DNA of 64,000 nucleotides from Telopea speciosissima. Taxonomy: Eukaryota > Streptophyta > Magnoliopsida > Proteales > Proteaceae. Shown here one piece after another: positions 1,960 through 52,489 of this stretch. Location of the stretch: positions 11,364,001 through 11,428,000 of the forward strand of contig NC_057916.1 of assembly GCF_018873765.1 (NCBI RefSeq), in the 5' to 3' direction. Numbering within the stretch: position 1 is the first letter of the stretch; each line of letters starts with the position of its first letter. Both the position numbers and the translations under genes were made by a program. The notes beneath the pieces are model-generated. The model was given only the letters and a program-made list of their open reading frames with translations. It ran no database searches and had not been told where the DNA came from.

Positions 1960-3205
1960 CAGGGAAACCAGTGGGAGATTAGCTAGCGACAGGATCGCAG
2001 GAAAAGAACACAACCTGATTACAGAAAACCAAATAACTCAGTCGAAACAGACAGATAAGTAAGAAATTCTGGCCAATTAGTTGCTATAAACCAGTAAAAT
2101 TAGATGGAAATCTGATGGTTGGATTCAAAAGATATGGAGGAAACCTACTAGGAGTAGGAAAACTTGAGCTGCAGAATCGATGGACTGTAAAGGATTCAAA
2201 ACAAGATTTAGTTAAGAGATTAAATAAATGACAGAAACCAGAAAATCCCAGGCAAAAACCTGATTCAGAAACTCAGATTTGAAGTTGAGTTGAAGTACAA
2301 TTTCAGAAATTAATGAGAAAACTGAATAAAAATATAATCTCATTATAATACTTCACCAAGCAAATCGATGGCAATTGCTAGTAGCGTTTAATCAGGGATT
2401 AACTAAATAACCAGAAATAGGTATTGATATATAAAGATAGGAGAATTAGAATAAAAAAATAGAAGAAAGTAGAGGAGCTAGAAGAAGATATTAGAAAATA
2501 AGAATAACAGAGAAGAAGTGATGGGATTCTAGAAGACCCAAGGAACTAGGTTTCAGAAACTCAGACTAAACCAGACACGCAGTGAACAAATAAGGACCAG
2601 AATAAAAGGTTAAGTGATAAAACAGTGATCCGGATTTTAGATTTGAATCAATTTCAATGGATCACTAAATTCAAATATAGGAACAGAAAATAAAAAACTG
2701 AACCTGATTCAAGGGTCTGATCTTGAGTTTCAGAAGAACCCTACTAAGAAAAGGATTCTTTGAAACCAGCTCAAAATGAAATTTTGAAACCATGAATCAC
2801 TGAAACATGAAGTGAGATTTATATGTAAGCAGAATTTTATCAAACTTGGTGAGGGTAGATAGGAAGAACCCTATGTTCAGATTACACACCGTTTTTAATA
2901 GGACCTCAGCAAACCCTAAAATAGAATGTAGATCAACGAAGAGGTTAAAGTCAACCTTATCAGATGAAGGTCAGATTCTGACAACTATTAGGACAAGTAA
3001 ACCCGAAAGTATTGTGATGTTATAACATTCAGATTTATATCAATGGTCAAAACAGTGAAGGTTTGAAAAGCCTAAGCCAAAATCAGGTGATTTCTTATAA
3101 CAACAGATGAGCAGGTCCGATCTGGCTTAAACTCCAGTCGAAGGAGCCTCTTAGGAGGACCTTTGACACCTCAAAATATGGGGGTAATCAGCTGGCCAGA
3201 TCCCC
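1960..3205 (-). mobile_element. LTR-type repeat fossil, relative of the one at 14827-16022
   Basis: No coding content. The stretch shares phrases, order and orientation with the LTR-like block inside the receptor kinase gene: the 'gtcgaaggag..cctnnggnggnccttga' segment at about 3135-3170 against 15257-15290, and the 'agcaaaccc...tcagatgaaggt' segment at about 2906-2970 against 14900-14950. Both look like diverged copies of one long terminal repeat family. It is old, with unclear ends, and no internal protein-coding part can be seen. The exact family is not established. Confidence 0.45.
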
Positions 3206-3214
3206 TATAATTGG

Positions 3215-3395
3215 TGTACACCCCCTGTACTTTGCCTAAAACATTAATAAATCCGAGGTTTCCAATAACCACCTTGTACACCCCCCTCGATTTAAAAAAA
3301 ACACACACACACACACAAAATAACAGTCCGCTAGGAACTCAACTTTAAGCGATGATGTGGAGTATACTTTGGACATGAAATGACCCTTATACCCT
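3215..3395 (+). repeat. Left outer terminal inverted repeat
   Basis: Pairs with 6880-7039. Shared landmarks in order are tgtacaccccctgtactttg, 'aaacattaataaa', 'gaggtttccaataaccacc', a variable A-rich stretch (here with an (AC)n run at 3301-3317), 'aggaactcaac' and 'gtggagtatactttggac'. Confidence 0.85.
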
Positions 3396-3554
3396 TGCAT
3401 AACACCCTTAACAAATCCTACAGCCATCGTCTTCCCCAAACCTATTCTCTGTTTTACCCTAACCCTATTTCTAACCCAAACCCAGATATTCAGGTGATAT
3501 TTTAGTAGATTCAAAGGGGAAGGGAAAGCGAAAAGGTGAAAAAAATTGGAGGAC

Positions 3555-4400
3555 GGAAGCTTTTCGTATATCCCAAGATTGGCAATGTTTGATTAGTGAT
3601 TCTTTCTTCATTACTCTGCACCTCAATCGATACAAGGAGAAAAACCCTTCTCTCGTTTCATAATTGATGATAGAAAAACCTTCTGCACAGTAGAGGACAA
3701 TACATGTCATAAACTTGATATGCCTTTCTTAACTTCTACCGAATTGTGGAATTACGGGCATAAGATCAACGTCATGGGTTCGTGCAATGGGTTGTTATGT
3801 TTTTCGCAGTCAAGGTTTAAGATTCGTTACAGAGACCACATATACCTGTTGAATAGAGGCACTAGAGAATTCAAGGAACTTTCATATGCTCCCTGCAGTA
3901 ATTACAATGCTCCTCTGGTCGGACTAGGGTTTGATCCCATGAGTAAAGACTACAAATTTTTTAAGATTGGATACTATAATAGGCTTGGAGATAAACCCAC
4001 AATTTTGCAAACCGATGTCTGGTTGTACTCGTTGAATTCAAATAATTGGAGAAAATTTGGAGATATCCCAATCCCAGACCTATATTTTCTTGATTCATCA
4101 ACGCCAGTTGTAAATGCTACTATTCATTGGATGATATCTCGGAAGAACAGTTTAGGTTCTTTATCGTCCTCGATCTTTTCTCTTGAAGTAGTAGATGAGG
4201 TGTTTAGAGAGTTACCGCAACCTCCTGAACATGGTTGTTATAGAGATATTGCAGTGATGGGAGGATGCCTTTCTGTTTTCTATGAAGGAGGTCATGACTC
4301 AACTGAGATATGGGTGATGAAGGAATCGTCTTCCCCAAACCTATTCTCTGACTCCCTTGTGAGCTTCGCTTTGCTTCTTGAAGATGATTGGACACCTTGA
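3555..4400 (+). pseudogene. Broken F-box gene with F-box-associated (FBA) domain
   Basis: The open frame at 3720-4400 (226 residues) reads as the FBA beta-propeller-like domain of plant F-box/kelch proteins: GSCNGLLCF, LLNRGTREFKELS, GLGFDPMSKDYKFFKIGY, VWLYSLNSNNWRKFGD, NATIHWM, YEGGHDSTEIWVMKE. Just upstream, 3555-3660 in another frame gives DWQCLISDSFFITLHLNR, the stretch that normally follows the F-box, so one frameshift near 3660 separates the two. No intact F-box motif is visible before it. The C-terminus departs from the family right after WVMKE at about 4325, where a 26-base phrase also present at 3427-3452 begins, so the original 3' end seems to have been replaced. Intact relatives would recruit substrates to SCF ubiquitin ligases. 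The piece lies inside an inverted-repeat element and is probably a captured fragment. Confidence 0.85.
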
Positions 4401-4493
4401 AGTTAAGGTACAGGGCATCAAAGTCAAGCCCAGAGTAGTAGACACAGAAATCGCTTTAAGGGCAGGCATTGAAGAGCTCTGATCATACATTGG

Positions 4494-4996
4494 CAAAGTG
4501 ATGCAAACACGACCTGGGATGGAGCTCCAATCGGTTATGGTTTTTTAGCCCATATTCTGGGTTTAATAAATCCATCGAACCAGCCTAGTTTGGTTCAACT
4601 TCTGACCCAGTCAACCAGTCCTTTTTTAGGAGAGAAATTCTAGCTATCAGCCAACCTGCTATGTGGAGGATATTTTCCAAAATTGGTGGACATCGGACAG
4701 CTGTATTTTCCCCCCCATCGATCCAGCAAATATTGTGGGAGATTTTTCATATTTATTAGTTATCAATTTGCTGATTTATAGGGGAATTAGTAGATTCATG
4801 GGAACCTAGGAGGACAGCTATCGATCAGCACTGAAGGAGATAATGATCAAGATTGTGTGGGCCCCATGGCCAATATGAAGAGAATAATCTGTGGAAATAT
4901 TCCCCAGATCTTGTGGGACCCATGCCAATTTGCATTAGAGAATGATGCTGCAAAGGAGCCATATTTCTTGAGAGATTTTCTAGTGGGGCCCAGCTG
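4494..4996 (+). repeat. Inner inverted repeat, left arm
   Basis: About 500 bases that match the reverse complement of 5981-6488, with roughly one difference every 10-15 bases by eye. Landmarks are gatggagctccaatcngtta, 'ttgaaccaaactaggctggttcgatgg' in reverse, the run of C at 4708-4716, 'gacagctatcgatcagcact' and 'gtgggccccatggcc'. The function of the sequence is unknown. Confidence 0.9.
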
Positions 4997-5001
4997 CTTT
5001 G

Positions 5002-5743
5002 TGATGTGTTAGTTTCCTATAATATAGAATTCTATCTAGTCCTTGCGTGGGGGGCTTAGTAGCTTTAAGGTTGTTTTTTTTTTTATTAGATTTATTATGT
5101 AATGGGTAGTTCTATTTTTAGGACACTTTAATTTCTTGCTTAGAATAGGATTGGGTTGCTTTATTATAAATACATATAAGTGGTTGAGCAGAAGAGGACA
5201 AAGATTGAAGAGAAAAGAGTTATGGTTGAAGCTGTGAGATGCGGCAATGGTGACAGACCGTAGGTGAGAGGCCCTAGGTGAGAGGATGAAGGGTTGGTGA
5301 GAGCCTGGGTGAGAGAGCTGATCCTATGCCCCTTCTATATCCCTTTATTTATTTATTTATTTATTTATTACAATAAAAGGCCTATTAATAACTTAGGCAA
5401 GCTTACAATAATAATAGAAACTTCCAAAATAGAAATTAGTCTAACTTAGAAAATAGAAACTACTAAATCCTAACTAAAATAGAAGGTAACTAAATCAGAA
5501 ACTACTAGGCTTTATAATTCAGCCACATGCAAGGAACAAATTAGAAACTAATAAATATAGTAACTACTAAAGTGCACCAATCCTAATTGATTGGTCGAAG
5601 GAGGATCTTATCAAAATCGTGGGGCATCTTTGGTCCCTGCTTGGCTGGCTTGAGTTGGCCCTGCTGGGCTGGCTTGAGCTGGTCCAAAAAGGGACCTAGT
5701 TTGATGGGTCTTTTGCTTCTTCCTCTGGCCAGAATCTACATCA
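5002..5743 (-). mobile_element. Gypsy-type LTR fossil
   Basis: On the minus strand this block runs from TGATGTAG to CACATCA, so it has matching TG...CA borders, and it is preceded by a purine tract (aaagagggggagagc) at about 5744-5758 like a polypurine tract. A short stretch that looks like the 3' end of an internal region lies at 5744-5980. The 5' LTR and nearly all of the internal part are missing, so this is a broken remnant. It contains an (ATTT)n run at 5347-5371. Family assignment to Ty3/Gypsy rests on the tract and border style only. Confidence 0.55.
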
Positions 5744-5980
5744 GCTCTCCCCCTCTTTGGAAGGAGTGGAATTGATCTTCGTGTTGTGTAAATCCGTCTT
5801 AGTCCATAGAAAAATTCAGGCAGTTCTTTGGAGATACGGATGAAGTCTACGAGATGTGGCATCCGTTCTTCAGTGTACTTGGGTGGAATAATAAATTCCA
5901 CATGCTCAACTTCAAAATCTTCAGAAGTATCCATGGGATCATCCACATATGTGTAAGCTTGCCTAAGTTATTAATATGGC

Positions 5981-6488
5981 TGGGCCCCACTAGAAAATCT
6001 CTCACAAAATATGGCTCCTTGGCATCATCCTTCTCTAACACAAACTAGCTTGGGTCCCACAAGATCTGGGGAATATTTCCATAGATTATTCTCTTCGTAT
6101 TGGCCATGGGGCCCACACAATCTTGATCATTATCTCCTCTAGTGCTGATCGATAGCTGTCCTCCTAGGTTCCCACGAAATCTGTTAATTCCCCTATAAAT
6201 CAGCAATTTAATAACTAACAAATATGAAAAATCTCCCACAATATTTGCTGGATCGATTTGGGGGGGGGGGAATACAGTTGTTCGATGTCCACCAATTCAG
6301 GGAAATATCCTCCATGTAGTCAGGTGGCAAATAGCTAGAATTTCTCCCTAAAAAATGGGCTGATCAACTCGATCAGAAGTTGAACCAAACTAGGCTGGTT
6401 CGATGGATTTAATTAAACCCAAAATATGGGCTAAAAAACCATAACTGATTGGAGCTCCATCCCAAGTCGTGTCTGCATCACAAAGGCA
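5981..6488 (-). repeat. Inner inverted repeat, right arm
   Basis: Mirror copy of 4494-4996. The two arms are separated by about 980 bases made of the LTR fossil and its short internal stub. A transcript across both arms could fold into a long hairpin. Confidence 0.9.
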
Positions 6489-6640
6489 TTGGTTCAAAGT
6501 ACGTGGTGGATCTAGAAATTGAATGCAAACCATTTGAATCCATAAACAAGGTTTCAGTTTTGAAATTGGCTTCTGGGTCTTTCTGTCTCATCATAAGGCT
6601 TCTGAAATTTGGTAAAATCCCTGATTTCCTCTTCAATTTC
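6485..6640 (+). pseudogene. Piece resembling a WRN-like 3'-5' exonuclease
   Basis: The plus-strand frame beginning at 6449 reads VVDLEIECKPF, then KVSVLKLASGSFCLI, then IRLLKFGKIPDFLFNFL. This follows the start of the plant Werner-syndrome-like exonuclease domain, where the usual pattern is V-G-L-D-x-E-W-x-P, then LQLC...CLIFQLL, then IP..L..FL. The first catalytic Asp position is Glu here. Only about 50 residues are present, there is no sensible start, and the following residues leave the family, so it is a fragment captured between inverted repeats. The family call is by eye. Confidence 0.55.
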
Positions 6641-6879
6641 CTTCATTTACCTGATCTGCCAACATTGGCTGCTTCTGTTCTTGATGATCGAAGGCTGTGC
6701 AGCGTTGCGCCCTAGATGGAAGAGTCCGAATCTGCAGCAGAAACTACCTCGGAAATTCCGATTCCAACGGAAACCAAACTGAGAGGGGGCAGGGGGAAGA
6801 GGAGAGAGTTGCAGAGCCGGAGAGGGAGAAGAAGGTCGGTTGCCGAGGTGGGGGAGGAGACTTAGACACATGAGGATAT

Positions 6880-7039
6880 AATGGTCATTTCATGTCCAAA
6901 GTATACTCCACGTCATCACTTAACGTTGAGTTCCTAACAGACTGTTATTTTTATTTTTTTTCCATCGAGGGGTTGTGCAAGGTGGTTATTGGAAACCTCA
7001 GGTTTATTAATGTTTTAGGCAAAGTACAGGGGGTGTACA
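6880..7039 (-). repeat. Right outer terminal inverted repeat
   Basis: Reverse complement of 3215-3395; see the composite element. The immediate outside sequences differ on the two sides, and no direct repeat of 8-10 bases was recognised. Confidence 0.85.
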
Positions 7040-7050
7040 TGGAATTTTCC

Positions 7051-7690
7051 CTTTAATAAAAGATACATGATAGGCAGTACCTTCCTTTGCTGTCCCGCGA
7101 GTTGGAATGTTGTGATCAAGTGCTTAGTCACTACCAAACTCCAAGAATGCATCCTTAGTATCTACTTGTTGTTAATTGATGAATCTCCATTGTGTTTGAG
7201 GCTATAATTTAAGGCAAAAGTGGGAAAATTGTGACTGAAGGAAAAGGAATAGGGGAGATGAAGAGGGTGGTAGCCTAAGAAAGAAGAGTTATTGAAGGGA
7301 AAGGGGGTTCACACCAACTTGGATTCACTTCAAGGTTTGTAGGGAATCACTCATGTTGTAGAGAATGGGAGAAAATCTCACAAATTCCAACATCATTCCT
7401 TGTCTTCTGTGTCAAAATACAGTCTTTTAAACCCAAAATGAAAAGAAAAGAAAAGAAAAAAAAAAGGAAATAACTACTTTTCCAGCAACAACTCCTTTAC
7501 AACATTGGTACATAACTGTTTTGACACCAATAAAATAAATACAACTAAATAAAACAAGCTACACATAAGTAACATCCACACAAGTTAATAAGGGACATTT
7601 AGCCACAATAAAGTGAAATGTTGTTGTGTAAGTTGGCATCTCCTCTGATATGTCCTAAATCCTATTGCGATGTCCTCATCAGTACCTAAA
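7051..7690. other. No gene recognised
   Basis: AT-rich intergenic sequence with an A/G-rich run at 7437-7466. No coding motif seen. Confidence 0.5.
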
Positions 7691-8510: not shown

Positions 8511-9265
8511 ATATTAACTAATGCACTTTGAGAGTTATGCTGTCTACCACTCATAATCATAAAAGAGAGCTTAGAGTTCCCTTACATAAGAAGACAGAGA
8601 GAGGGGAATGGGAATTAAAAAAGGAAGTGTACACTCATGTGTAGCCTTCCAAATAAGAAAACCCAGAATTTTCCTGATAGAGACTTAGAACTCAAATGCA
8701 ACAGCTAATATACATAAATGTTTAAAAGAAAAGATGCAATATAATAACTTACTCTAGCATTAACTATCATATAACACCTGGAAGTAGACCATCACTGATA
8801 GGAGACGTCCGTACTTCAAAAGAACATGTACTTCTTTGACCACACAGGAACTTCCCCACAGCTCCATTGCTCTCCTGGTTACATGTCCTACAGGATAAAG
8901 ATCTAGAAATTTTATTTTACAGCCTTAAAAGTATTAACTCACAAGCGAAAGTGCAGAGGTTCAGTTAAGTCGTGACTTGTTATGATTCATCTCAAAGCTG
9001 GCTCATACCATGAAAACCAAGTGAAAACACCAATTCCAGCTCACTTTGAAGAGTTTCTCTGCAGAGACTACAATTAAGCATGAGACACAAATAGAGATAG
9101 AGAGAATAACCCAACCCATGACTACTTTATATTACAAAAAAAAGGCAGCAAGTCGAATATGGGGAATGGGTGTTGACTTGCAGCTAAAGAAACATGAGAG
9201 GTTAAGCCAATAAGGCAATGAAGAAGAGGAATCATTTCATTCAAAAATTTACTGAATGAATGTTT
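8511..9265. other. No gene recognised
   Basis: No protein motif, RNA gene or repeat structure recognised on either strand. Confidence 0.4.
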
Positions 9266-9772
9266 GAATGCATAACTACTGACAAAAATATGTATAAACA
9301 ATTTTGTTGGTCTGATTACTTCTTCTGCTTGAGAAAATGGCCCCAGAATGTCGATCAATCGACCAAAGAAACAAATTTGCAAAAAAAAAAAAAGTGCACA
9401 AACAAATCTGATGGACTCATTGTCAAGTTCAATATCACACTAAGTCATGAAATCTCTGGAGAAACTCAGCAAGTTTCGACCTACTTCTAAGGTCATCTGG
9501 TGACCTGAATATGCAGAAAAAACAAATTTTGTTGAATGCATAATTACTGACAAAAATATGTATAAACAATTTTGTTGGTCTGATTACTTCTTCTGCTTGT
9601 GAAAATGGCCCCAGAATGTCAATCAAAGAAAAAAATTTTGCAAAAAAAAAAAGTGCACAAACAAATCTGCTGGACTCATTGTCAAGTTCAATATCACACT
9701 AAGTCATAAAATCTCTGGAGAAACTCAGCAAGTTTCGACCTACTTCTAAGGTCATCTGATGACCTGAATATG
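9266..9772. repeat. Tandem duplication, two units of about 268 bases
   Basis: 9266-9510 is repeated at 9534-9772 with few differences. Shared landmarks are gaatgcataactactgacaa, the A-rich run followed by gtgcacaaacaaatctg, 'ctctggagaaactcagcaag' and 'gaatatg' at the end. The open frames on both strands here are by-products of the repeat. Confidence 0.95.
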
Positions 9773-21800: not shown

Positions 21801-24800
21801 ACTCACTCAAGTCTTTGGTTACCAAAAACTGGTATGCAGAAGGATCAGAATAATCCTACGACCCAAGTTTTCAATGGTCTGAAGTTACCCAGCAAGAATG
21901 CCGATCTTCTCCATTTACAATTACCTAAAATGAATTTAATTTATTGATGTGAAACTGATCACCTAAAATGACCCTAAAAGCAATGCCACAGATTACCACA
22001 TATGTAAAATTAAATAAATTTAAACAGCTTAAACAGTCTCTTGTAAATGATAAGAAGTAAGCATCAGTTGCATCTGGTCTTTTAGTATACAGATGAGATT
22101 CCAGTATATTAACTAGATTACATGCATTTAATTGCACAGGAACAGAAGAAATGCTCACTTCAAAATCAGATTCTTTTCAAGAAGACTGCTCGGAACTGTT
22201 CCAGATAAACTATTATATCTGCAACCATCAGAATCAGCAAGTAAAAAAGACCTTCTTCAATAAGTCAAATAGATGAGTTATTTGGTGCAGCTCAACCCAA
22301 AAAGGGGATGTGAGCATAGTTAAGTTCCTTTAGGGAAAGGAACCCTAACTAGTTGTCGAGAAACTCTTTGATATTTAATCAAAAAAGGAAAGAAGAGGAT
22401 TTTTTTTTTTTTTGCTAATAGAAAGAAGAGGATAGATAACCCCTAATTGTAGGGTTAGGTTTATATTAGGGAAAGAAACACTAACTAGTCATGAAAGCAA
22501 CTTAAATGAAAAAATTATAAAAAGAAAATACAAAAAAATATTCAGGATTATGCTTGGATCATTGATAGATTCCATGTGAGCTACCATTCACATTTCCTTT
22601 ATTATACAGGCATATAACGGTGGGCCTTATGCAGGCTTGTGAAGGGTTGGAGGCTGGTACAACCCAACTGCATAAATGTTATTTCCTATAAGCAATAGGA
22701 TAGAACATGCAGCTGCAACAAAATGCTCACAAAATCTAGTCATAGATATATCACCCAGTGCTACCATAAAGTATCATCATGTGAAAGTCCCCTCAAACTG
22801 TTTGGGAACTCATAGTAACTGACAATTCAGGTAATACTTACAATTCCTTCAACTCCTGTAGGTCTGCTAAAGACGAAGGCAGCTCACCACTCAACTGATT
22901 GTTCTCAAGATGACTGACAAACAGAAATAAAACCATGACCAGGATAAATTTTGGGCGGTAAAAAACTAAAAAGGAAAAACATAGTTGGTTTTTACATTAT
23001 TTTCAAGTTTATGCATCCAGTAAAAGCAGGTATTGGACCTGTGAGCGAGTTTCCATCAAGCCATCTGCAGTCATATGATTAGTAGTCATTGATACCAAGG
23101 AAACCAATTATATGTTAGGAAACTGTTCACCAATTTTGAAACTTACAACTCAACTAAGCCTGTCAATTTTGTCAGCTCCAAAGGAATATTTCCTGTCAAA
23201 TTCTTCCTCGACAAAAAACTGCCAAGATATCAGAAAGGGAAAATGGTACATAAATCAGTGGCAATAGTTTTGATAGTTAGGTGCAGAACTAGATCTCAAC
23301 AGAAAGTAAGATGAATGTATTGGAAGTGAGGAGAACAGATATACATTGAAACTATCCTTGGCTGTGGATCCGAGTTACATTGCACCCATGACCATGGAAC
23401 TGGCAAGCATGGATCACCACCCTCTTGGGCCCAATCTGCAGCTGAGTAGTGTGAAACTAGATCGGCAATAACTGTTCCTGTAGGGAATGAAGCATTCCAT
23501 CAGTAATGCCTAGATTAACACTGGGACCAAAGAATTCCATTCAAAAAGATTCCCTCAAGGATACAAATCCATCCAATCACTAGTAATAACTGTACATTCA
23601 AAAATGCTGTAGCAGTACTTCTGGCAAAAGAATATAATTCACAAGAGGCCATAGCATACAAGGAGCCAAATCTATACCATCAAGAGAACCATCATTTATC
23701 CGCAAGTACTTATTTATCTCCATAGCATTCAAGAGCGGTCCCCTGGATGAGTCAGACGTTTTTTGGAATTGAAAACTCAATATAAAGGGAAGTGATATGT
23801 TGGGTATTCCTGGTTGGTACAGTCGATCTTTCCCCTGGGCATTTTCTTGAATATTGACTGCAGCTTTGGTGATGTCAGGTGCGCCAGGGAGGATAAGCCT
23901 AAATTTCCTAGTCTCATTTGGACTCAAATCTTCAATTTCAGCGAAGTATGTGCATGCCCACCCAAAACCTGGGAAGCCATCCAAGTTCAAGCGGTATGTC
24001 AACAGTCCACTTGTACCAACAACAGCTGTCTGCATCACTTTTTCAGGTGGTCTGTCATTTCTATTAACATCAATAGGCATGATGGTCGAGATTTTCTTAG
24101 TGCCTGCAGCAACATCTACAAGATAGTTTGCCTTCTTCAAAGAATCAGACTCCCATATTCTATCAAATGGATCATCTGGATACCTGAAAAAGAGAATTTT
24201 CTTACAGAAAAAGCCAAAATAAAAAGACACAGCACAAAAGAAATATAGTTTACCTTCTGATGCAATTGGAGAGCCAAATAACCAAACAAGCAATCATAAT
24301 TAGACAGAGCACAAAAGAAAAAGGCAGTAAGCACTTTTAAGCATAGGTTTGAGATATACCTCACTGGAGCATCACTCTCTGCACCAAAGTTAATTCTTGC
24401 AGATGTGCTAAGGAAAAACTGATTTTCGAAATCTGTATAGTAAACTGAACCATTAAATTGCCGAAGCTCAAGTGTAGAGACAAATGGCTTCCCAGTTGTA
24501 GCATTGGATAAACACACACTAATTGTGGGAAAAGAAGCCAAGAATATCAACTCTCGAACCTCAATAGTATTAGCATCCGAAATCACAATTGTCGACCAAT
24601 GAGTAGCCCCCAATGATAAATCAAATTTTGGGTACACATTATTGTTGTCAAAGTTACCATACAAGAATGTTGTCCTTACAAGGTAACGTGTTCTAGTCAC
24701 AACATTGAGAGTATAACAATACTTTCTGTTATCTGCTGGGAAGTGCCGCAGTGTCATATATTGCTTTTGAGTCGCATTTGCAACAAATATATTAGCTGTT

Positions 24801-27582
24801 TCACCATAATTAAATTGATCATCAGGAATCCACTCAAGACCAATATCATCCGTGAAATTCTCCTTCCCTCCACAGTCTATGCTTACAAAACCTGCTTCGC
24901 ATGATCAAATGTGTTAGTACAGCAAACCAAATAGGTGAAAAGAAAAACAGGCCATTCAGAGAGTGTTTTTGCACAAAAACTCTGGGTCAAATAATTCAAC
25001 CAACTTAGGAGATTCTACACGAGCAGAGTTTATGGCTCTAAAGACTCGTACAAATTTGTTATTAAGGATGACAGATGTTAGGGGTGAACCATGGCGTTAT
25101 GCTCATTTATGGCCAATAAATCATTTAGCAACTCAAGTCAGTATACAGTTCTGTTGGCATCCGAGAGCTAGAAGTGCTAATGAGGTTGCAGATGAGTTAG
25201 CTAAGGAAGGGGTTGTTAGACCCCAGATCTGTTTTGGGAATTCTATTCTTTTTGATTGAGTTGTGAGAGTCTTCCTTTCATTGGTTGGGGGTTTCTTTGG
25301 TGGATCTTTTGGTTAGAAGTATCTTATACTTTATGTACTGCTATGTATCTCTCTGTACCAATATGCTGCTGTGATTGGTTTTAGTAAGGTTATACTTGTG
25401 ACAAACCCAGAACCTGGAACCAGTACCTGCAAGTGGAAGAAAGAGAGAGAAAAAGAAGAGAAGAGAGTTTCTGAACCCATGATAGACTCAGCTTGTGTCT
25501 ATCCATGATAGTCTAATTACAAGAGGAATAAAATTAAGACTTAAACTAACAGCAAACTACTAACTAAGCTAACCTATATCACGATGGGACACTCCCCCTA
25601 TCTTGACTAACTACTAACAACTAATGTACTGTGGTACATATCTTAACAATACTCAATATCGCTTTTCCGACATGCTTTTAGTGACTCAACCAAAGAAACC
25701 ATTTCCCTATATGTGCATAATGCAGTAGATATGGTTTCCTTGGTCAGTTGAGCAAGGAGAGCTAAATTCACAAACCCACCTCGCCTAATGTATGTAAACT
25801 GATAAAAGGCCAATATTTCCTCATCCAAGTGAAGATATCACTCGCATAATATAATTATAAACTAAGAACATAATCTTAAACTTAGCGTAGAAGAAATGGC
25901 CTCATCAGTACCAGAAGTGAGCAAGAAATTAGACTTTTTTCCTGGTAGCAACAGTTAAACAAACTTCTGCAAAAGATCTTAAGAGACAGATGTGGCTTTA
26001 AAGGAGTATCCGACAGTCACCACAGTATCCACGAAGCATTTCAATCAAAAGAACTGGGAGGAGAAAATTTTAACACTTCCACTTGGAATATCCGACAGTC
26101 ACCACAACTCAGCCTTTTGGAAAAAGAAAATGCAGCTTACCGGAACATTTAAAACATAATGTAGCACGTGAAAAAGTTGTCCAAGCAATTCAACAAGGGA
26201 TTGAAATAAAAGCTATTAAACAAACTCACTTTAGGACCATAGTGTCCGGAACAACTAACATACTGGTTCAAACTTTTTGCAACCTACTTAGCATTTACAA
26301 AACTAATTCTATCCAGACCCTTCAAAACTCCCATGCTCATGTCCTCATATCCTGTGACTTGAAAGATGATGGATCAAGCAAATCTAGTATTTGTACCCTT
26401 ACCCATGCAGCCATGCCAAACACCCTACAGGTAGCTTACACAGAGAATCACTAAAGAATAGAACCAACAAACAAGAAGTTGGTGCTTGGGAACCACTGGG
26501 GTACTGAAAACAGAACAGTCCAAGGATCAGCTGCCGAGAATTCTACATAATAGTCACATAAGACAATTCTATTAACCATTGATCATCTAAAGAGCCAACA
26601 GTGGGTCCAGTTGACCACATCAATGTGAAAAGAGCATGAAATGGGAGGGGGGGGTCTGGCTGGATTTGTTGAAGTATTAACATATCAATTTGAACTTATT
26701 CAATGCCTCCAACTCCTGACACTAGGGCAGTTTTGGTGTTTTGAGCTTAACATTTTCTTGGAGTAGGTTTTGAGTGTAGTCATGTAGCCAATTTGAATGT
26801 AATTCCAGTCTCTTTGGGTTCCCAGTTTTAAGTCCAAACTTTTTGGTTGTCTTTATTTCATTTTCAGAAGTCAATTGAGTGTAGGTAATTTTCCTATCAA
26901 CTTTTATTGGGGATCAAATATTACCGTTAGGCATGACTTTCATAAAACCTTCAGTTTACAGTCAATCCCATGTATTCCATCAACATCACTTAACCCACAT
27001 GAATCCTCAAATTTTCGTTCCCTCTGGCTGTTCTTCAACAAATTGCAGCCAAAAAGAAAAAAGAACCATAGGCTTTACAACAATCTTAACTCAGTTAAAC
27101 TGAACATGGAATATAAGGAAACAGGTCGTTAGTCGTTACTGCTCTTTCTATCAAGAGTAATCAGTTGTTCCAAACTGAAAGGAAAAAAAAAATAAGTAAT
27201 TCTTCGACGAGTAAATATCAAAACAAGAACAGAACTGGAACCTAGCAAATATTTTAAGGCTCATGCAGAACAGTGCAATATGAAATTTCAAACAGAAATA
27301 TCAATAAAAACGTAAAAATTTATAATAAAAAAAAACATAAAGCCACACTTAGAAATGCCTTAGATTTACTGGAGAAATCTGAGCGTGAATCAATTCTTAC
27401 GTTACAACTTTCGTGGAGAGTAAGTTAGTGTCGTGATCTTTTTAAGCATTCAAGAAACGAAGAAGAAAAAATTAAGAGAGAGGGTGGATGGAAGCTAACA
27501 TACCGGGCATCTGAGCATTGGTCGGGTAGATGAAGAAAAGGAGTGAAAGAGAAAGCAAGAGGAAAGGCCTCCTCGCCTCCAT
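12804..27582 (-). CDS. Malectin-like LRR receptor kinase (At2g37050 type)
   Basis: Fifteen coding exons join in frame into 924 residues: 27582-27504, 24891-24360, 24183-23678, 23477-23345, 23218-23147, 23064-22996, 22913-22842, 22218-22159, 18577-18423, 18325-18084, 17569-17443, 17171-17103, 17000-16814, 13571-13436 and 13139-12804. Residues 1-25 are a signal peptide ([16 protein letters not shown]). Next come a malectin-like region to about 375 ([22 protein letters not shown]), an EGGDPC hinge and leucine-rich repeats to about 508. The membrane span is near 525-547, and a kinase follows from about 593 with [30 protein letters not shown] and GTVGYLDPE, so it is an RD kinase. It would sit in the plasma membrane and phosphorylate Ser/Thr; the ligand is unknown. 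The LRR exon 22218-22159 is 60 bases and joins as ELYNSLSG, three residues shorter than the usual repeat, yet in frame. Length and exon pattern match Arabidopsis At2g37050 as I remember it. Confidence 0.93.
14827..16022 (-). mobile_element. LTR-type fossil inside the receptor kinase intron
   Basis: On the minus strand the block runs from TGATGCAG at 16022 to TCATGCA at 14827, with matching TG...CA borders, about 1.2 kb, and no coding content. A diverged relative is at 1960-3205. It is probably a solitary long terminal repeat and looks old. I see no matching 5-base duplication at the borders, so the ends are approximate. Confidence 0.5.
16440..16650. repeat. Degenerate dispersed repeat with 'ggatcaatc' motifs
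   Basis: The phrases 'attg(g/a)caagattggacaa' and 'gtggatcaatc' occur twice, at about 16460-16497 and 16580-16620, marking a local duplication about 125 bases apart. No coding sense. Confidence 0.55.
17205..17395 (-). repeat. Dispersed 'GATCGG/GGTTTTAAAAC' type repeat relic
   Basis: On the minus strand it begins 'ccctggttataaaact' and continues with repeated gatc/cggat/ctggac words. The same style of sequence occurs at 41345-41540 ('agggttttaaaactagg...'). It lies in the short intron between kinase exons at 17171 and 17443. Family unknown. Confidence 0.45.
18578..22158 (-). other. Long intron 8 of the receptor kinase gene
   Basis: 3.6 kb between the last LRR exon and the exon with the membrane span. 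I found no recognisable element in it. There is a G tract at 19227-19239 and many short frames without motifs. Confidence 0.7.
24960..25395 (+). mobile_element. L1-type LINE 3' end, RNase H domain remnant
   Basis: The plus-strand frame 24963-25259 reads as the end of a plant L1 ORF2 RNase H domain: [12 protein letters not shown], then WRYAHLWP and [20 protein letters not shown], followed by a stop and a 130-base AT-rich 3' part. Everything upstream of the domain end is missing, as is usual for 5'-truncated LINEs. It is antisense to the host gene. Confidence 0.8.
25397..25591 (-). mobile_element. Short LTR, Copia or TRIM type
   Basis: On the minus strand it runs from TGTCCCATCG to TTTGTCACA (195 bases) and is preceded by a purine tract (tagggggag) at 25592-25600. 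A second LTR was not found nearby. It abuts the LINE end. It is a remnant with no coding part that I can recognise, so family and age are uncertain. Confidence 0.5.
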
Positions 27583-30664: not shown

Positions 30665-31871
30665 AAAGAAAAATTTGATGGAAAAAATCAACTTTTTTGT
30701 TGGATTTATTCAAGGGTTTGCCCCTTCTCAAAGTTCTGAGTAACTTTTTTAAAAGTACTTTATATTTTTTTATCACACAAAATAGAAAAGAAAAAACAAA
30801 AAAAAGGGAAACTTTGCATAAAGAGAACTGATTTCCCATTCCTTTTGGGCAGCTTTACTTTCTACACCCGAGGCCAAGGAAGGGACTGCTTACAATATTT
30901 TTTCTTTGAAATCTTTATCTGAAGTCTTAACAGCTTTATTGCCTTTCCTTTTTTTTTTTGTTATTTGGCTTCAGAATCTTATTCCATTAAAAGAATATCA
31001 AAGGATCAAGTTTCCCTCAACCCCGGGAGAGAACGGGAATGGATATCGGGAGGATGTTTTGGAACATACTAAAACACTAAGAGGGGTTTGTGAACCCTAG
31101 GATGATGGATGACCATCCACCGTCCTCTGTGGGTGAAGAAAACTTTGTCCAATAAAAAAAGACTTTATTTCTTCTGAAAAGCATGCAAAAGGTAAAAACA
31201 TAACTAGCAGGGCAGAGAGGCCATTTCATAGGGGAACACACCATTACTCCAACGAGGGGCGATGGAATGGTTTCATAAATAGAAGGGCTGAGAGGCCATT
31301 TCATGAAGATTTTCCCCAAAAAAAATAATTTGAAGGGCTTTTTATTTCTCATTAGCATACCCTCCAAACAAATACAATCAAATAAATTCTTCTGTCTACA
31401 TACTATTTTACACCAAAGATACAACAGAAACTCTTGAGGATCAAAATAATCCAGGAAATAAAAATTGGCACAAGAAAAACCAGGAACTCTCACAAGTATA
31501 GAAGAGCTATCAGTTTTACAAACCTTGTAAGGTGACTGATAGCTCTACAGTCTGTAAATCTATAGAATGAATCCCATTGATGGGCGTCACAATCTGTAGT
31601 CATAAAACAAGAACACTAGAAGTAAGAAATCAGCACTTCCTAAAGAGACATCATCGCCGAACAAAAAGGCAATCAGAAACAACAAAGATCTGCAAATGTT
31701 GCTCACTGGAGTATGTGGTGTGCAATCTTCTGATGCATCAACCCTTGACATAATTTCTCAAGATGGGACAAGTTGATGGTTAAATGGCATGTCAGTAGTC
31801 CCTCCCTGATGCATCTCTGTATATATATATATATATGCACTCAATTCATCCACAATACCAAGACCATAGGA

Positions 31872-40941
<9,070 letters not shown>

Positions 40942-44233: not shown

Positions 44234-44941
44234 AGGGCAACTATGGTAGATTTCTCCAAAAAATAAAAATTGAAGTGCTTTTTATTTCTCAAAATTTTTT
44301 TTTGGCGGATACTTATTATTTCTCTTTAGCATACTCTCCAGACAGATACAATCAAACAATTTTTATGACCACATATTTTACACTCTACTAAATAACAAAG
44401 ATACACCAAAGCTAAATAAAATATGGCACATGGAAAACCAGGAACACTCACATGTAAGAGTGACTGATTGCTCTACAATCAGTAAATCTGTAGGCTGAGT
44501 CCCATAAATGGGCATCACAAGCTGCAGTCACACACCAAGAACACAAGCACCAGAAAATCAGCATTTCCCCCAAAGAGACATCATGGCCAAACAAAGGCAA
44601 CCAGAAACCATAAAGATCTGCAAAGTTGCTCACTGGATTATGCCATTTGCAATCTTCCAAACATTTGACATAATTCCTGCTAGATGGTACATGTTGAATG
44701 ATAAAAATCTCAGGAGAACTCGCCCCTAAAATCCGGCTCATAAGGTGAGGGAGCTGAAGATCTTATCAATCCCCACCAAGTTCCTTATGGAACCGATGTG
44801 GGATCAGCCTCCAATATCACTGATATGTGATTAAACATTGAAGGTTAAATGGCAAGTCAATAGTCCCTTCATGAGGCATCATGTATTCTGATATTGTGTA
44901 TAGATGCGCATTCATCCATCTACAATGCCAAGACCAAAGGC

Positions 44942-52489
<7,548 letters not shown>

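Follow-up and report, generated by a model that had tools for sequence, protein, structure and literature searches.

Organisation of the locus

We analysed a stretch of 64,000 nucleotides from Telopea speciosissima (contig NC_057916.1; C1:11364001-11428000 in our numbering), hereafter the window, and searched for related sequences in the 823-Mb genome with its 1287 contigs. The subject of this work is an element with long inverted ends at 3211-7051 of the window, which encloses a piece of F-box-associated (FBA) sequence, a piece of a 3'-5' exonuclease gene and, splitting the latter, a composite of long terminal repeat (LTR) retrotransposon sequences. A sequence-only reading of the window had placed here, at 3215-7039, an inverted-repeat element with pieces of two unrelated host genes and had assigned it to the Pack-MULEs, which are plant Mutator-like elements (MULEs) with captured gene fragments. 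The inverted ends are real, as the blocks 3215-3285 and 6969-7039 are 94% complementary and the blocks 3317-3395 and 6873-6951 are 91% complementary. Based on the evidence set out below, we are confident, though short of certain, that the element is the relic of a Pack-MULE holding unrelated host-gene pieces, which was later split by a retrotransposon composite and which has a breakpoint at its left end. The Pack-MULE itself is of the ordinary kind and represents a further member of this class; the unusual part is the inserted composite, which turns the same LTR end outward on both sides.

Terminal inverted repeats and their family

The left terminal inverted repeat (TIR) occupies 3211-3395 on the + strand and has lost its outer ~10 bases, according to inverted-repeat, genome and flank comparisons. 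Its counterpart at 6873-7051 on the - strand, delimited by inverted-repeat and family comparison, has kept its outer end (...GGAATTTTCCC). The ends of the family reach about 11 bases beyond the complementary blocks and, with some variation, read GGGAAAATTAC...GTAATTTTCCC; in the window copy, these bases are present at the right end (to 7051) and missing at the left. Using the left end as query and scoring 40 of 174 candidates, we found at least 41 matches genome-wide, including seven inverted pairs of 1.3-1.6 kb, so that the ends have the other genomic copies expected of a mobile family. The adjoining sub-terminal regions extend over 3396-3565 (+ strand), where genome matches show 3398-3443 and 3424-3487 to be common to other MULE-type copies, and over 6776-6872 (- strand). 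On the right side, 6776-6880 is common to 8 of the 18 family loci compared, some of which were chosen after matching this very stretch. The 64-base block 3424-3487, next to the left TIR, recurs with 95-97% identity in L063, L064 and L065, whose MULE-like ends are only ~68-76% similar, and this suggests an exchange of sub-terminal sequence between TIR families.

For the relatives, 20 regions were taken and the 11 complete pairs lying within a single locus were examined for target duplications, taking the best 9-base match at the ends with small offsets allowed. A 9-bp duplication with at most one mismatch is present in seven of the eleven, compared with 3 of 110 pairs scored by the same rule after swapping left and right ends between elements. 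Clean examples are L041, L042 (perfect), L044, L051 and L052. Long TIRs together with 9-bp duplications are the signature of Mutator elements. Besides, the family carries assorted cargo: when seven frames of relatives, chosen by eye and one per locus, were run against Pfam, four contained different host-gene domains, namely a protein kinase (L047), leucine-rich repeats (L041), TPR (L042) and WI12 (L052), and no Pfam domain was found in the frames of the other three (L053, L038, L055). The diversity of these domains indicates that the TIR family collects gene pieces. The Mutator-like class and the Pack-MULE assignment of the sequence-only reading are thus borne out by the genomic copies of the ends, the duplications in the relatives and their other gene pieces.

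Among the listed frames of the window copy, none is of transposase size, and the element can be described as a non-autonomous MULE with TIRs of ~180 bases. The genome contains at least 150 matches to the MULE transposase domain PF10551 (150 of 827 candidates scored), dozens of them in open frames of more than 600 amino acids. The longest TIR pairs, L044 (9.6 kb between the outer TIR matches) and L045/L046 (16.6 kb), contain Copia integrase, reverse transcriptase and GAG-pre-integrase domains. Tandem TIR copies in the same direction occur twice in L050 (C2:42956500-42959500) and four times in L056 (C7:31734500-31738500), resembling published multi-TIR MULEs.

Captured gene pieces

The first captured piece (3566-4326, + strand), delimited by its genomic copies and by NCBIfam, aligns with an F-box gene cluster at C2:78.43-78.46 Mb with 76% identity at best. 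It matches the NCBIfam model F_box_assoc_1 (E=6e-17), and the best parent, L010, matches both the F-box (PF00646, E=2e-9) and F_box_assoc_1 (E=3e-27). Its beginning coincides with the last residues of the F-box, and what follows is the associated part; the reading frame is shifted close to the beginning, and a 266-codon open frame spans most of the piece. Since Pfam returned only two Kelch matches for this frame, both below the cut-offs, the FBA call rests on NCBIfam. The F-box/FBA piece of the sequence-only reading therefore stands as far as the FBA homology is concerned, but most of the F-box motif is missing and the piece is F-box-associated sequence only. One MULE transposase match, in a 770-amino-acid open frame (C2:78421838-78422107), is located ~5 kb from one end of this cluster (C2:78426902); its distance to the best parent is ~39 kb, and the proximity may be coincidence.

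The second captured piece derives from a gene for a 3'-5' exonuclease of the WRN/EXD2 type and was delimited by alignment to its parents. Its 5' part (4352-4498, + strand) comprises part of the leader, a start codon at 4384 and coding sequence up to 4498 with an in-frame TGA at 4480; the first BLAST match begins at 4368, and the start at 4352 was set by eye. The 3' part (6481-6697, + strand) carries an internal in-frame deletion of 84 bases at a 4-base microhomology. The nearest genomic copies are L022 on C11 (91%) and L023 on C33 (90%), with identities of 90-92% across analyses, and both have uninterrupted open frames. As the joined window piece shows no Pfam domain, the exonuclease call is based on the parent L022, which matches PF01612 (3'-5' exonuclease, E=6e-12) and, among solved structures, finds EXD2 first (E=3e-10) and then the WRN exonucleases (E=6e-7). 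The proposal of a WRN-like exonuclease was consequently right, with the correction that the piece begins before the nested repeat (~4352) and is split by it. We also considered the capture of a spliced, cDNA-derived copy; the intron-like gap is open frame in L022-L025, and it is a deletion at the microhomology TGAT instead.

Between the two pieces lies a filler (4325-4350, + strand), which a repeat search identified as an exact copy of a 26-base sub-terminal stretch of the element (3426-3451, + strand). Beyond the exonuclease piece, 6698-6775 (+ strand) is a candidate third captured piece: outside the MULE family, the stretch 6698-6780 matches a single place in the genome (86%, C9:5356469-5356547), and it may have been captured as well. 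The best parents of the FBA and exonuclease pieces are located on different contigs (C2 versus C11/C33), which supports two unrelated host genes as sources and speaks against a parent with both in the same order outside the element. Judged from these locations, the two pieces were most likely captured separately.

The 266-codon open frame over most of the FBA piece might suggest that the element yields a functional F-box/exonuclease chimera. However, the reading frame is shifted on the 5' side, the F-box motif is lacking, and the exonuclease piece has a TGA at its codon 33 (4480-4482) where the parents read TGG, besides the 84-base deletion and an insertion of 2 kb; we regard a functional product as extremely improbable.

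The nested LTR composite

Within the exonuclease piece, an LTR-retrotransposon composite of 1982 bases with inverted U3 ends occupies 4499-6480 (no strand assigned), as defined by copies of the two LTR families involved, termed LTR-A and LTR-B, and by the parent genes. It is flanked on both sides by CAAAG (4494-4498 and 6481-6485), and both L022 and L023 read TTGGCAAAGGCAC unbroken, so that comparison with the parents defines an exact 5-base target duplication. The left arm (4499-5363, + strand) is LTR-A from the U3 start into the presumed transcribed region. It is followed by the 3' end of LTR family B in reverse (5364-5954, - strand), which comprises the internal 3' end, a polypurine tract recognised by eye and LTR-B, cut near its presumed polyadenylation region. 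A short inverted copy (5955-5978, + strand) of the LTR-B stretch 5378-5407, found by repeat search, links B to the right arm as a scrap of 24-30 bases (5952-5981 versus 5378-5407). The right arm (5979-6480, - strand) consists of the first ~500 bases of the LTR-A U3, inverted. Consequently, both ends of the composite are the U3 start of LTR-A (TGATGCA, reading TGCATCA at the inverted right end), and the U5 end is absent.

The assignment of the arms to an LTR is based on their copies elsewhere in the genome. These occur in direct pairs in L033 (C11:5926535, 5927720) and L036 (C6:37466442, 37467399). In L033, LTR-A measures ~1.08 kb and is followed by TTTGGTATCAGAGC, which we take to be a tRNA-Met-type primer site, and a purine tract precedes the second LTR. 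The solo LTRs L030, L032 and L034 start with TGATG, end with TGCATTA and are flanked by perfect 5-base duplications (CCCTT, TTAAC, TTTCC). Duplications were left unscored for L033, whose second LTR has its far end outside the locus, and for L035/L036, which represent one diverged element in which the LTR end motif was not found. For LTR-B, there are at least 48 genomic matches (40 of 779 candidates scored); by eye, the copy L058 has gag-like and protease-like frames upstream, and no Pfam domain was detected in a family-B frame of 118 amino acids. Neither outer junction of the composite is found in any other LTR-B match listed, none of which extends beyond positions 26-625 of the 671-base query. 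A pattern for the U3 terminus with up to three mismatches, which misses more diverged copies such as L033, has ten genomic matches (control pattern 0), and only one close inverted pair occurs among them, that of the window.

The arms 4499-4994 and 5979-6480 are 82-93% complementary in blocks, and they form the second, nested inverted repeat that the sequence-only reading had included in the Pack-MULE. Its presence is confirmed, but it is an LTR insertion with its own CAAAG duplication and no part of the Pack-MULE. A second Mutator TIR pair, as in a multi-TIR MULE, or a separate foldback DNA transposon would equally have long inverted arms; multi-TIR MULEs have been described (PMC3310237), and L050 and L056 provide tandem TIRs among the relatives. 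Nevertheless, the arms are not TIR-family sequence, and elsewhere the same sequence forms direct LTR pairs, in L033 with a primer site, or solo LTRs with 5-base duplications. We therefore rejected a second MULE and give the whole alternative almost no credence.

Origin of the composite

A single integration event would explain the exact 5-base duplication around a unit that is flush at U3 on both sides, and a single integration implies that the unit was already a chimeric cDNA. On balance we favour, with reservations, an integrase-mediated insertion in which both joined ends of a palindrome-like chimeric cDNA were U3, following template switching among templates from two LTR families, one of which contributed both senses. 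The integrated DNA would have had the LTR-A U3 end at both termini with the reversed family-B 3' end between them; such a molecule would most likely have arisen in a particle that contained both A and B templates, with synthesis switching between them, and joining through its two U3 ends would give the 5-base duplication.

Several observations make this interpretation less secure. Integration through U3 at both ends is based on one copy. Next to the duplication, the U5 end (TGCATTA) and the inverted U3 (TGCATCA) differ by a single base; since the terminal bases are weak evidence by themselves, the case depends on the inverted U3 that continues behind them for 500 bases. The arms, moreover, are 90.1% alike over 496 columns of a multiple alignment (91.7% pairwise with 17 gap columns), no closer to each other than each is to L030 (92.3 and 90.9%), and one source for both is neither proven nor excluded. 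In a tree of seven LTR copies, the only supported grouping is that of the two LTRs of L033.

Alternatively, an ordinary LTR-A insertion at CAAAG may have been remodelled at its site, with LTR-B and the inverted U3 added through template switching at microhomologies or through fold-back repair. Short shared bases at the internal junctions fit this explanation: near 5350, 12 of 14 bases are common to the A copy L033 and the B copy L060 (10 of 14 with the B copy L061, by eye), and by eye there are 2-3 bases of microhomology near 5979 and three (ACA) near 5953. In addition, the U3 start and the U5 end are near-inverted 7-mers (TGATGCA / TGCATTA) and provide a possible switch point. On the other hand, the breakpoint would have to fall exactly on the boundary between LTR and duplication, the right terminus reads TGCATCA as in U3 and not TGCATTA, and at least three switches are required, including one onto a copy of family B. 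In comparison with five other LTR copies, only one derived base is common to both arms, and 10 and 15 are private to them, which also speaks against rebuilding but is weak in view of the star-like tree of the family. We rank rebuilding in place as less likely than the single integration of a chimeric cDNA and, taken for itself, consider it rather unlikely.

Loss of the left end and probable order of events

Both flanks of the element consist of repeats that continue elsewhere in the genome. The repeat to the right of 7051 begins exactly at 7052 in 28 of its 43 matches besides the window, and two of its copies, L068 and L069, keep aligning to each other for ~185 bases upstream of this point. 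A different repeat ends left of 3211, and its copies L070-L073 align with each other well past this point. As judged from these alignments, the right-hand repeat is the most likely site of the MULE's insertion, and a subsequent breakpoint most likely joined the left-hand repeat to a TIR without its outer ~10 bases. The 9-base target duplications expected by the sequence-only reading hence occur in the relatives and are gone from the window copy because its left end is truncated. Transposition is not expected of a MULE that lacks one outer end, and the same applies to this copy with its lost left terminus. The missing duplication had also raised the idea that the two ends stem from different MULE copies. 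This is unsupported, as the TIRs of the element are 87.7% alike and those of ten of the eleven relatives range from 80.1 to 93.9%; the exception, L049, has 62% identity between its left and right TIR, and its left end matches in two pieces.

From these observations the following course can be proposed. A non-autonomous MULE would have gained the FBA piece and the exonuclease piece separately, and possibly a third piece. Capture would have taken place while an internal gap of the element was being repaired, through copying that switched templates, a route that fits the 26-base filler repeat and the unlinked parents. The MULE would then have inserted into a repeat by means of a transposase acting in trans. 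Next, the chimeric LTR-retrotransposon DNA would have integrated at 4499-6480 within the exonuclease piece. At some point after the insertion of the MULE, a breakpoint would have taken away the left terminus together with the target duplication.

The capture of the exonuclease piece likely preceded the LTR insertion. Conversely, the composite could already have been present within the exonuclease gene copy when the MULE captured it, as the anatomy of a single copy does not fix the order. This would require a 2-kb composite to be captured along, both close parents are uninterrupted, and the composite junctions occur in none of the other LTR-B matches listed; we consider this order improbable.

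Taken together, the following points count against the proposed history of the Pack-MULE. The element has no 9-bp duplication of its own, as no 9-mer with up to two mismatches to TTTAATAAA is present within 3151-3214. Two of the seven good duplications in the relatives (L037 and L039) sit in T runs, and the remaining four of the eleven relatives carry 2-3 mismatches in their best 9-mer. None of the 150 PF10551 matches listed lies inside a TIR pair of this family when coordinates are compared by eye, and no MULE domain was found in the 20 frames of L044 and L045/L046 covered by a scan of the longer frames. With no more than 76% identity in the best F-box parent, the actual donor may have disappeared or escaped the search. 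Finally, the order of capture and LTR insertion is likely and not fixed by one copy.

Comparison with known systems

The element resembles other Pack-MULEs in its long TIRs, the 9-bp duplications of its family, its unlinked host-gene fragments and the different cargo of other members. It differs in that the window copy lacks the left terminus and a duplication of its own, and in that a retrotransposon composite interrupts it. Complex LTR insertions in Triticeae, rice and maize with one 5-bp duplication have been explained as the single integration of template-switched cDNA; they are reported to comprise three LTRs of one family, with near-identical outer LTRs, and two core regions, apparently all in one direction (Sabot and Schulman, 2007; PMC1950507). 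The window composite shares a multi-part LTR structure within one 5-bp duplication, here CAAAG. In contrast to those insertions, its outer LTR pieces are inverted, ~90% alike and end in U3 on both sides, and its middle derives from the 3' end of another family in reverse. Among the matches listed in our search of the open-access literature, no inverted-LTR insertion was found, which is no proof of novelty. The nested composite is a variant of the template-switched LTR insertions and new as far as the literature searched shows.

With the multi-TIR MULEs (Ferguson and Jiang, 2012; PMC3310237), the element shares the presence of more than one inverted pair in a MULE; unlike there, the inner pair is LTR-A and not a TIR. 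Pack-TIRs of animals are reported to form by gap filling with captured 'fillers' and microhomology at the breakpoints (PMC8277862). Filler and microhomology are common features, whereas our evidence comes from one plant element and consists of a single filler repeat of 26 bases and a single deletion at a 4-base microhomology.

Other features of the window

Further along the window, 31844-40922 and 44914-52452 form a long degenerate tandem duplication. It accounts for 14 of the 20 direct-repeat families shown, with blocks of 112-300 bases that recur at a spacing of 11-13 kb and with 72-90% identity. On the - strand, 23598-24904 contains a pair of overlapping open frames (231 and 255 amino acids) that, by eye, resemble the malectin-like outer portion of a receptor kinase. 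At 9264-9772, a 259-base unit is present in two head-to-tail copies with 93% matches. No Rfam match was found in the window at gathering scores.

Implications

The Pack-MULE adds a further example of gene-fragment shuffling in a plant element family whose members carry varied cargo. Of greater use is the nested insertion, as the uninterrupted parent gene provides an exact empty site and thereby ties the inverted-LTR structure to a single 5-bp duplication. Composites with U3 at both ends resemble foldback transposons, and annotation that relies on inverted ends could misclassify them. They are also natural long hairpins, and long hairpins can yield small interfering RNAs. If the proposed origin is true and general, a share of the plant 'inverted-repeat' elements and hairpin small-RNA loci would be products of U3-U3 retrotransposition and not DNA transposons.

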